From contig MELC01000018.1 of NCBI GenBank assembly GCA_001767455.1, forward strand, positions 1 to 46,332: a stretch of DNA of 46,332 nt. The letters run 5' to 3'. Of the stretch, positions 18,198 to 20,642 are shown piece after piece. Numbering within the stretch: position 1 is the first letter of the stretch; each line of letters begins with the position of its first letter. The notes beneath the pieces were generated by a model. It made no database searches and had not been told where the DNA came from. It saw only the letters and a list, made by a program, of their open reading frames with translations. The position numbers were made by a program, and so were the translations under genes. The stretch comes from Acidobacteria bacterium RIFCSPLOWO2_12_FULL_66_21 (lineage in GTDB: Bacteria; Acidobacteriota; Vicinamibacteria; Vicinamibacterales; 2-12-FULL-66-21).

Positions 18198-18225
18198 TTG
18201 CATTCCGAGTAAATATGAGTACACT
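18198..18225 (+). promoter_or_regulatory. Putative sigma70 promoter of the tetR-ubiB operon
   Basis: TTGCAT (18198-18203) and TACACT (18220-18225) are separated by 16 bases. The -10 element lies inside the first operator half-site block. Transcription would begin around 18232, about 30 bases before the chosen ATG. Confidence 0.45.
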
Positions 18226-18248
18226 CACGTTAGTTATGAGTGCACTCA
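18216..18248. promoter_or_regulatory. Tandem operator, two TGAGT-n2-ACTCA palindromes
   Basis: TGAGTACACTCA (18216-18227) and TGAGTGCACTCA (18237-18248) each have perfect 5-bp arms, and their centres are 21 bp apart (two helical turns). They overlap the putative -10 element and lie just before the TetR start. This is the classic arrangement for autorepression by two TetR dimers on the same face of the DNA. The binding protein is inferred to be the adjacent TetR. Confidence 0.7.
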
Positions 18249-18260
18249 CCTTCTGATGCC

Positions 18261-18929
18261 ATGGCCGCCCGCACACCTTCCGTCACTCGCCGCGCCAGGC
18301 GGCCTGCCCGGCCGAGGGGACGCCGCGCCGCCGCCAAGGCCGCCACCCGCGAGCGCATCACCGCCGCCGCGCTCCACCTCTTCGCGTCGAAGGGATTCGA
18401 CGCCACGACCACCAGGGCGATCGCCGTCAGGGCCCGCGTCGCCGAAGGCACCGTCTTCAACTACTTCGCCACCAAGGAGGACATCGCCCTCCACTTCTTC
18501 GAGCAGGAGGTGGACTCGGCCATCGCCGCGGTCCGCAGGAACGCGCGCCTCCGGAAGGCGCCGCTCGAGGAAAAGCTCTTCGCGCTCATCCAGAGCCAGA
18601 TCGAGTACCTCACGCCGTACGAGAACTTCATCGGCGCCGCCTTCGTCCAGGCGCTCCGCCCCTCGTCGACGCTCGCGTTCTCGCTGCGCGCCTTCGCGCT
18701 GCGCGCGCGCTATCTCGCGTTCGTCCAGGAGCTGATCCAGGAATCGCTGCCCAGGCACGGCGCCAACGCCATGGCCTGGGCCGCGCCGCAGGCGTTCTGG
18801 ATCTACTACCTCGGCATGCTGCTGTACTGGCTGCACGACCAGTCGCCCGGCAAGCAGAACACGCTCGCGTTCCTCGACCGGTCCCTCGCGCTCGGCGTGC
18901 GCATGCTCCGCAAGGGCACGCTCGGATGA
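18261..18929 (+). CDS. TetR family transcriptional regulator
   Basis: A 222-residue repressor from ATG 18261; GTG 18240 is in frame but falls inside the operator. The DNA-binding domain follows an Arg/Ala-rich N-terminus: RERITAAALHLFASKGFDAT, TRAIAVRARVAEGTVFNYFA, then TKEDIALHFF. The C-terminal ligand domain is helical with aromatic residues (AFWIYYLGMLLYWLHD) that suggest a hydrophobic ligand. Its stop overlaps the ATG of the UbiB-like kinase (ATGA), so it very likely controls that gene together with itself. Confidence 0.9.
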   Translation: MAARTPSVTRRARRPARPRGRRAAAKAATRERITAAALHLFASKGFDATTTRAIAVRARVAEGTVFNYFATKEDIALHFFEQEVDSAIAAVRRNARLRKAPLEEKLFALIQSQIEYLTPYENFIGAAFVQALRPSSTLAFSLRAFALRARYLAFVQELIQESLPRHGANAMAWAAPQAFWIYYLGMLLYWLHDQSPGKQNTLAFLDRSLALGVRMLRKGTLG

Positions 18930-20227
18930 CTCGACGCGACGGACCGGTCCGCCGCGCGCTGCGGATGGCGGCGATGGGCGCCGGCGTGACCGGCAGCTAT
19001 CTCGGCTACATGGCGCAGAGCGCGTTCCTGAGCGGCGACCAGAGAGCCGTGCGTCTCAAGCGCGCGCACACGAGGGCGGCGCGGCGGATGAGCGACGAGC
19101 TGCAGGCGCTGCGAGGCCCCGCGATGAAGCTGGGGCAGGCCCTCAGCCTGCAGCACGGCGTCCTGCCCGACGAGATGCTCGCCGAGCTCGCGACGCTGCA
19201 GATGCGCGCGCCGGGAATGCATCCGGCGCTGGTGCGCGCGCAGTTCACGGGGAGCATGGGACGCGAGCCGGAACAGGTGTTCCGCTCGTTCGAGACCACC
19301 CCGTTCGCCGCCGCCTCGCTCGGCCAGGTGCATCGCGCGACCTTGAAGAACGGAGAACCCGCGGCGGTCAAGATTCAGTATCCCGGGATCCGGGACGCCA
19401 TCAAGAACGACTTCACGTGGTTCCGGGCGATCTCCAAGCCGGCGCAACTCTCCAGGCACCTCCCGCCGGATGTCATGGACGAACTGGAGGCGCAGATCCT
19501 CGCCGAATGCGACTACGAGCGCGAAGCGAAGAACATCGCGTTCTTCAGGAAGGGGCTCGCCCCGCTCCCGTTCGTCGAACTTCCTGTCGCCCACCGCGCG
19601 TATTCGACCGACCGGGTGCTGACGATGTCCATGGTGCGCGGCGCGCATCTCGACGACTTCCTGGCGCGCCGGCCGTCGCAGGCGCTCCGCGACCGTGTCG
19701 GCGAACGCCTGTTCGAGCTGTTCTACTTCCAGATCCTCGAGCTGCATGCGCTGCACGCCGACCCGCACTGGGGCAACTACCTGTTCGGGAGCGACGGAAC
19801 GATCGGGCTGGTCGATTTCGGGTGCGTGAAGTACTTCCAGGCGCCGTTCGTCGCCAACATGCGGAAGGTGTTCCTCTACGCAGGCTCGCGCGAGTCCGCG
19901 CATTTTCGTCAGATACTCGAGGAGCGGTACGCGACATCGGGCACGCGCCTCTCTCGTGCCGCGGTGCGCGCGCTGGCGCGGATATCCGTCGAGTTCTACG
20001 GCCGTGTGTATCCGGCCGATCCTGCCACGGACGGGATTCCGTTCGACTTTGCCGATGACGCCGTCATCAGGGACTACCTGCGCGAATCGACCAGGGTCGG
20101 ACGCGCCAGGGCGACGCTGCCGGAGTATGTGTTCCTCGGCCGCGCCGAGAGCGGGCTGTATCAGACCCTGCATCGCCTGCGGGCGCGCGTGCACACGAGC
20201 GCCATCGTACGGAAGTACCTGCGATAG
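18926..20227 (+). CDS. ABC1/UbiB (AarF)-like atypical kinase
   Basis: A 433-residue protein with the atypical kinase features of UbiB/ABC1/COQ8: the KxGQ motif in AMKLGQALSLQ (68-71), the Ala-rich loop AAASLGQVHRA, ATP Lys in AAVKIQYPGI, catalytic HADPHWGNYLF and metal-binding LVDFGC. It is about 100 residues shorter than E. coli UbiB because the C-terminal membrane helices are absent. One hydrophobic patch near the start (MAAMGAGVTGSYLGYMA) may touch the membrane. UbiB proteins support quinone biosynthesis or lipid handling. Coupling to a TetR with a hydrophobic pocket suggests lipid or quinone-responsive control (inference). Confidence 0.85.
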   Translation: MTRRDGPVRRALRMAAMGAGVTGSYLGYMAQSAFLSGDQRAVRLKRAHTRAARRMSDELQALRGPAMKLGQALSLQHGVLPDEMLAELATLQMRAPGMHPALVRAQFTGSMGREPEQVFRSFETTPFAAASLGQVHRATLKNGEPAAVKIQYPGIRDAIKNDFTWFRAISKPAQLSRHLPPDVMDELEAQILAECDYEREAKNIAFFRKGLAPLPFVELPVAHRAYSTDRVLTMSMVRGAHLDDFLARRPSQALRDRVGERLFELFYFQILELHALHADPHWGNYLFGSDGTIGLVDFGCVKYFQAPFVANMRKVFLYAGSRESAHFRQILEERYATSGTRLSRAAVRALARISVEFYGRVYPADPATDGIPFDFADDAVIRDYLRESTRVGRARATLPEYVFLGRAESGLYQTLHRLRARVHTSAIVRKYLR

Positions 20228-20255: not shown

Positions 20256-20642
20256 GTGACCAGGCGCCTGCTTCCCCGTTCGGTCGCCGCGGCCATCGAC
20301 CGCAGCAAGATCCTCGGCGTCCGCGCGGGACGCGGGTCCACGCATCGCTTCATCGGCGTCTGGCCAATCGTCCTCGACGGCCGCGTGTTCGCGCGATCGT
20401 GGACGGTGACGCGCGGCGGGTGGTACCGTACGTTCCTGGAGGATCCGCGCGGGACGATCCAGGTCGCCGAGCGGGAGATCCCCGTCCGCGCCGTTCCCGT
20501 CCGATCGGAGCGCCTCCGCGACAGGATGGAGCGCGCCTACGCCGAGAAGTACCCGACGCCAGGCTCGCGGAAGTACGTGCGCGGATTCCGCGCGGCGCGA
20601 CGCCGCGAGGCCACCGTGGAGTTCCTCGCGGGCCGATCCTGA
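20256..20642 (+). CDS. DUF2255 family protein
   Basis: A 128-residue soluble protein with GTG start at 20256. It fits DUF2255: an Ile/Val-rich strand with WPIVLDGRVFARSW, a Trp-Tyr pair in TRGGWYRTFLEDPRG, then RMERAYAEKYPTPGS and a final strand REATVEFLAG. The family has a compact β-rich fold and no known activity. It is a probable monocistronic gene 28 bases after the UbiB-like stop, so read-through is possible. Confidence 0.7.
   Translation: MTRRLLPRSVAAAIDRSKILGVRAGRGSTHRFIGVWPIVLDGRVFARSWTVTRGGWYRTFLEDPRGTIQVAEREIPVRAVPVRSERLRDRMERAYAEKYPTPGSRKYVRGFRAARRREATVEFLAGRS

Follow-up and report, generated by a model that had tools for sequence, protein, structure and literature searches.

We analyse a locus in which a gene for a TetR-family regulator is followed by a gene for a short ABC1 atypical kinase, with two short palindromes in front of the pair (Table 1). 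The window, the whole stretch of DNA that we study, is an entire contig of 46,332 bases from a genome of 6.5 Mb.

Table 1. Features of the TetR-ABC1 locus in the window.
Feature	Position	Strand	Remarks
Operator 1 (predicted), TGAGTACACTCA	18216..18227	.	palindrome with one mismatched pair; conserved in L096, L098 and L119 at an equal spacing of 21 bp
Spacer between operators, 9 nt	18228..18236	+	holds the presumed -10 region, read by eye
Operator 2 (predicted), TGAGTGCACTCA	18237..18248	.	perfect palindrome near the presumed (inferred) start site
TetR-family regulator gene	18261..18929	+	222 aa from ATG; TetR_N and TetR_C_23
ABC1 atypical kinase gene	18926..20227	+	433 aa; short type without C-terminal helices

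An earlier, sequence-only reading of this DNA had described two palindromes 21 bp apart lying over the -10 element and a TetR gene fused by ATGA to the kinase gene. Both palindromes are present at that spacing (21 bp, start to start), but the -10-like element, as judged by eye, falls in the spacer between them and is overlapped by neither; likewise the ATGA junction is there, and it is an overlap of the TetR stop with the ABC1 start rather than a fusion. By eye, from alignments, the -10-like element reads TTAGTT in the window, TAATAT in the related loci L119 and L096, and TATATT in L098. The window's own promoter is poor, and a scan finds no consensus sigma-70 promoter at its tetR-abc1 operon. 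An in-frame GTG at 18240, within operator 2, offers an alternative start for the TetR gene. The next gene downstream of the pair encodes a DUF2255 protein (20256-20642); by eye, this gene does not follow the pair in loci L010 or L165, the L098 stretch being too short for comparison, and the neighbours of the pair likewise differ between the loci that we read.

Taken singly, palindromes such as those in Table 1 are nothing unusual. If up to two mismatches are allowed, they give 2 matches in the window against a shuffle mean of 1.5, and at least two matches occur in 43 of 100 shuffles. Chance is nevertheless an unlikely source of this arrangement because the palindromes are paired and conserved: The same tandem, at the identical 21-bp spacing, precedes the same gene pair in three other genomes (L096 from Acidobacteria gp6 AA38, L119 from groundwater Acidobacteria and L098 from Bryobacteraceae), where the flanks have diverged. 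With operator 1 as the anchor, the four loci agree in 24 of 33 operator columns, compared with 3 of 45 in the upstream flank and 0 of 27 in the downstream flank. Chance is also unlikely because TGAGTRYACTCA occurs exactly twice in each of the four genomes (G000, G425, G426 and G427), both times at the TetR-ABC1 operon, while reversed-pattern controls give 0.

We call the window's type of TetR-ABC1 locus subfamily A; it comprises four loci, of which three are intact, and all three intact loci share the ATGA overlap. In the remaining one, L096 3921-5880 (gp6 AA38), tetR and abc1 are each broken across two frames while the operator is intact, through assembly error or decay; this copy (L096/L011, G002/G427) is used for the operator comparison and is left out of trees and protein alignments. 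The sequence-only reading had named relatives without the palindromes as the outcome that would speak against it, and we find the palindromes in 4 of 4 subfamily-A loci. A palindromic operator at the regulator's own promoter, conserved among orthologues, is a trait of the TetR family, and this locus has it.

We also scanned a collection of 84,980 species genomes, in which the window's own record is possibly absent, for pairs of TGAGTNNACTCA lying 6-12 bases apart, and obtained 91 places in 77 stretches. Eight places have the exact 21-bp spacing; three of these eight carry RY centres in both halves, and all three are TetR-ABC1 operons. No relative of the kinase (E<=1e-4) is encoded in the remaining stretches of the scan.

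The confinement of TGAGTRYACTCA to its own operon favours autoregulation and disfavours a regulon: the TetR-ABC1 pair looks like an autoregulated two-gene unit, with the TetR most likely acting as a private autoregulator. The wider regulon for which the sequence-only reading proposed to search finds no support: outside the operon, the RY-centred operator is absent from all four genomes. With two matches in each of the four, both in front of the gene pair, we reject the regulon reading for this operator.

The window's genome holds three further TGAGTNNACTCA sites with centres other than RY, two of them apparently within genes and one (L042) upstream of an operon. This last site, TGAGTGAACTCA at L042 1501-1512 (G000:C47:19442-19453), precedes a PadR-MacB permease operon by ~110 bp and is a possible second, weak target of the TetR.

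Three more TetR-ABC1 loci (L136, L164 and L165) make up a sister subfamily B. L136 is a second TetR-ABC1 pair in the Bryobacteraceae genome that also holds L098, while L164 and L165 come from a search of 250 genomes of that genome's class, of which 3 matched at E<=1e-55, the Bryobacteraceae genome included. The subfamily-B kinases are 30-34% identical to the window's kinase and the TetRs 32-38% to its TetR. Their predicted operator is TGAGCATGCTCA, placed just downstream of good promoters that read, by eye, TTGACA-17 nt-CATACT/TATATT/TATTTT; L165 carries an extra TGAGCATGCTCA copy 50 bp upstream. This operator is as confined as that of subfamily A, with 1, 2 and 1 copies in the three subfamily-B genomes, every copy at TetR-ABC1, and 0 in the window's genome. 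Operator type thus co-varies with TetR subfamily, and the two subfamilies, deeply separated as they are, share one gene order. That both subfamilies occur in one genome with two different operators points to a compact, private regulatory pair.

The window's kinase belongs to the ABC1 family (PF03109, 198.4 bits against a cut-off of 22.9) and is the only full-length ABC1 match in its genome, at 200 bits, the other 26 matches reaching at most 36 bits. K68/G70/Q71, A129-A130-S131, K149, E194, D279, N284 and D297-F298-G299 are invariant in all six intact TetR-linked kinases, and we take the meaning of these residues from work on ADCK3. The MABP-1 model NF050082 is the second-best NCBIfam model on the kinase (133.7 bits over residues 6-355, far under its cut-off of 800), and 5yjz leads the solved structures by sequence (1.3e-36), with COQ8B close behind (6.1e-35); the 5yjz record is named 'probable conserved ATP-binding protein ABC transporter', and we take this protein to be MABP-1.

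To place the kinase we built a tree from 66 offered loci, of which 61 remained: L031 and L032 fell below the profile threshold, L026 is the broken G002 copy, L035 is short, and L037 was removed because its best match had already entered as L034, which leaves the tree without the second ABC1 gene on that stretch. The six intact TetR-linked kinases group as a single clade, making up one side of a branch among the 61 ABC1 proteins (97/93; 96% of 200 bootstrap trees), and 0 of 500 label shuffles are as low as the observed TetR-linked grouping. They sit in a 36-row half of the tree together with Actinobacteria-type proteins and most plasmid proteins. The absence of C-terminal helices that the sequence-only reading had remarked on is true of the window's kinase, where the highest 19-residue hydropathy after the DFG is 0.45 in the part scanned, yet it is ordinary: hydropathy scoring needed a DFG pattern, which was not found in 26 of 64 rows, and among the 27 scored proteins of the 36-row half (9 unscored) none has a C-terminal hydrophobic segment. 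In the other half (25 rows), 9 of 10 scored proteins show strong hydrophobicity in one or two C-terminal segments, the exception, L025, having none over the threshold.

A profile scan of the fetched flanks, ~1.5 kb long (2.5 kb for plasmids) and in some loci cut by contig ends, finds a TetR at 0 of 63 other ABC1 loci, or 60 distinct loci after 3 duplicates are dropped; as a positive control, the same profile recovers 3 of 3 unrelated TetRs. The 60 loci come from a search for relatives (26), from plasmids (10, hand-picked from 238 records), from the phylum of genome G428 (20 of 44 matches, one per genome, called Actinobacteria through the Acidimicrobiales locus L051) and from genomes reached through loci (4). 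The conserved TetR-ABC1 operon is real in a few Acidobacteriota, and its distribution is patchy. Subfamily A is found in 3 of 60 genomes from the family and order, the window's own included, and a search of the phylum at E<=1e-60, a threshold that would miss subfamily B, returns 1 of 396 genomes, namely the window's own. In titles and abstract openings of the open-access literature, subscription papers being mostly outside the search, we found no report of a TetR-ABC1/UbiB pair; one paper reports that in Streptomyces an ABC1 kinase cluster is syntenic with whiB7 (PMC13118837).

The quinone genes of the genome narrow the possible role of the kinase. The search finds no UbiH-type hydroxylase (TIGR01988) above cut-off in the genome, the best match scoring 86.2 bits against 224.65 and COQ7 lying outside the search, and it finds two MqnA/D-type proteins of the futalosine route to menaquinone. 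Given these menaquinone genes and the lack of a UbiH-type match above cut-off, it is improbable that the kinase serves as the UbiB of a ubiquinone pathway. It shares the ABC1 domain with proteobacterial UbiB, but scores 169 bits on the UbiB equivalog TIGR01982 against a cut-off of 487.55 and lacks the C-terminal helices. We reject the ubiquinone-operon reading as far as these tests reach, and to that extent the earlier statement that the pair is not part of known ubiquinone operons is borne out.

What might the TetR sense? Its family is clear from the TetR_N helix-turn-helix (HTH), which scores 55.1 bits against a cut-off of 24 and matches 6 of 6 members, whereas its sensing domain gives fainter signals. 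TetR_C_23 passes its cut-off in all three intact TetRs of subfamily A and falls slightly short of it in 3 of 3 of subfamily B. The Pfam COQ9 family (PF08511) exceeds its gathering score in the 3 of 3 intact subfamily-A TetRs, with 20.7-21.4 bits against 20.5 over 27-29 residues at the C-terminal end (residues 183-209 in the window), and is above cut-off in 0 of 3 subfamily-B TetRs (11.8 bits at best in one, no match in two) and in none of three further TetRs, one of them the aligned portion of 3c07, a protein that also has TetR_C_23. Because the PF08511 match is borderline, we do not file the TetR as COQ9; the COQ9 family model TIGR02396 gives 31 bits against a cut-off of 74.55. The best NCBIfam model is that of Bacillus FadR (54.6 bits, cut-off 200), and the nearest solved relatives by sequence include 3c07, for which no ligand is stated, and acyl-CoA-binding FadRs. 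Searched by itself against solved sequences, the C-terminal region returns 3c07 (2.9e-6) and weakly 3ni7 (0.12) with no FadR, and its profile finds no COQ9 at E up to 10.

An AF2 model of the TetR from three sequences has a low-confidence pLDDT of 65.1; with it, Foldseek ranks 3c07 best and FadRs next, with COQ9 (6dew) at rank 31 (E 0.035). VIA-align with the same model puts human COQ9 at the head of the list (6awl, Z 10.9, rmsd 4.9, 138 aligned; 4rhp, 10.8; 6dew, 10.7), tied with 3c07 (Z 10.7) and EthR (~10), and such Z values may reflect a common helical arrangement. The control TetR from L113, modelled from a single sequence, is too poor to serve as one (pLDDT 53.7, best Z 6.1). Profiles and model together suggest that the sensing domain faintly resembles COQ9, and these weak hints favour an isoprenoid or other hydrophobic ligand. 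The lipid- or quinone-sensing switch of the sequence-only reading is plausible on these hints, tempered by the Foldseek rank of COQ9.

Taken as a whole, the data are probably best explained by an autoregulated TetR-ABC1 unit that is released by a hydrophobic ligand and whose ABC1 protein handles that lipid or its enzymes. Ligand-free TetR dimers would bind the tandem palindromes that bracket the -10 and block tetR-abc1 transcription, as the conserved anatomy suggests. Binding of a hydrophobic ligand in the C-terminal pocket would then free the DNA; from the hints above, this ligand is most likely an isoprenoid/quinone-type lipid or some other greasy small molecule. The ABC1 protein would be made in step with its own regulator through the ATGA coupling. 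With its ATPase/kinase fold, this protein might handle the ligand lipid, or the enzymes of that lipid at the membrane, in the manner proposed for COQ8. The scheme resembles TetR autoregulated operons of the FadR, EthR and AcrR types in its TetR_N HTH, helical ligand domain and palindromes over its own promoter, and differs from them in its ABC1 kinase target, its tandem 21-bp operator and the lack of any other RY-centred copy in the genome.

The literature on COQ8B and MABP-1 would frame two leading readings of such a unit, as an isoprenoid-lipid device or as a xenobiotic cassette. COQ8B is an ATP-hydrolysing protein that CoQ metabolites stimulate slightly and COQ3 together with COQ6 ten-fold, and it supports the function of the COQ assembly (PMC7615680). 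A specific form of the lipid reading, to which we give rather little credence, is that the locus represents a bacterial COQ9/COQ8-like pair that has kept its transcriptional form, in which a COQ9-related TetR with an isoprenoid pocket would sense a prenyl lipid (menaquinone or a precursor), induce the ABC1 ATPase and perhaps hand the lipid over. Like COQ8 and COQ9 in ubiquinone synthesis, the locus joins one ABC1 protein to one TetR-fold protein, with the short COQ9 Pfam match and the VIA-align tie for the top. Unlike them, the bacterial TetR keeps its TetR_N DNA-binding domain and conserved operators in a genome with no UbiH-type hydroxylase above cut-off, its Pfam match to COQ9 is short, and Foldseek places COQ9 no higher than rank 31. 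The FadR model and the solved FadRs, of T. thermophilus and B. subtilis, which stand above COQ9 by Foldseek, would instead fit a FadR-like switch, with long-chain acyl-CoA as the signal for the TetR and a part for the ABC1 protein in adjusting fatty acids or membrane lipids; no FadR remains when the C-terminal region is searched alone, the operon has no fatty-acid gene and the genome no other RY-centred operator, and we hold this to be quite improbable.

A xenobiotic cassette would be a device for inducible tolerance: on sensing an antibiotic or another xenobiotic, the TetR would switch on an ABC1 protein able to bind or handle the compound, in the way that the mycobacterial ABC1 protein MABP-1 (Rv3197) deals with macrolides. 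MABP-1 is described without transmembrane regions, is erythromycin-inducible and confers resistance, which mutants of the nucleotide site lose (PMC6208485). The window's kinase is likewise of a type without C-terminal helices, has the MABP-1 model and 5yjz among its best matches, and comes with a private TetR and a patchy distribution that fit this idea. Against it, six neighbouring frames scanned contain no efflux or drug-modifying family, the kinase groups apart from the Actinobacteria-type branch (MABP-1 itself lying outside the tree), the 20 Actinobacteria-type ABC1 loci have no TetR in their flanks, and the COQ9-like hints point toward lipids; we regard such a cassette as possible, if doubtful. 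That another factor binds the tandem palindromes, with the TetR standing next to the ABC1 gene by coincidence, is hardly credible, given that each operator stands at its own operon only and follows the TetR subfamily, with gene order kept between the subfamilies.

The function of ABC1/UbiB/COQ8 proteins is still debated, and here an ABC1 gene comes with a co-encoded ligand sensor as its apparent sole regulator. The molecule that releases the TetR would then be a strong candidate for the compound handled by the ABC1 protein. Should the COQ9/COQ8-like reading be true, it would illustrate how a functional partnership between a lipid-sensing TetR and an ABC1 kinase arose outside ubiquinone synthesis.

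Similar tandem palindromes occur in other settings. A TetR HTH is encoded in two other stretches of the TGAGTNNACTCA pair scan, L113 and L051, both with 20-bp spacing. At L113 5724-5755 (Spirochaetales), TGAGTACACTCA-8 nt-TGAGTGTACTCA stands, by eye, before an SDR-like gene that is followed by the TetR, so that the same half-sites as in the window precede another kind of target gene; at L051 6707-6738 (Acidimicrobiales), TGAGTGGACTCA/TGAGTAGACTCA lie between the TetR gene and, by eye, a divergent hydrolase-like gene. A spacing of 22 bp is found at 70 of the 91 tandem places (such as L047, L049 and L055, among L045-L120), mostly in records titled Prevotella or with another Bacteroidales name; single genomes such as DDPY01 contribute many of the loci. 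These 22-bp-type places are not TetR-ABC1; most of the 15 places listed read TGAGTTAACTCA, and several have a third unit close by. Finally, TGAGTRYACTCA itself forms arrays of three and five palindromes at 23-bp spacing (L046 7806-7863 and L092 5964-6067; Streptococcaceae MAG Xx448).
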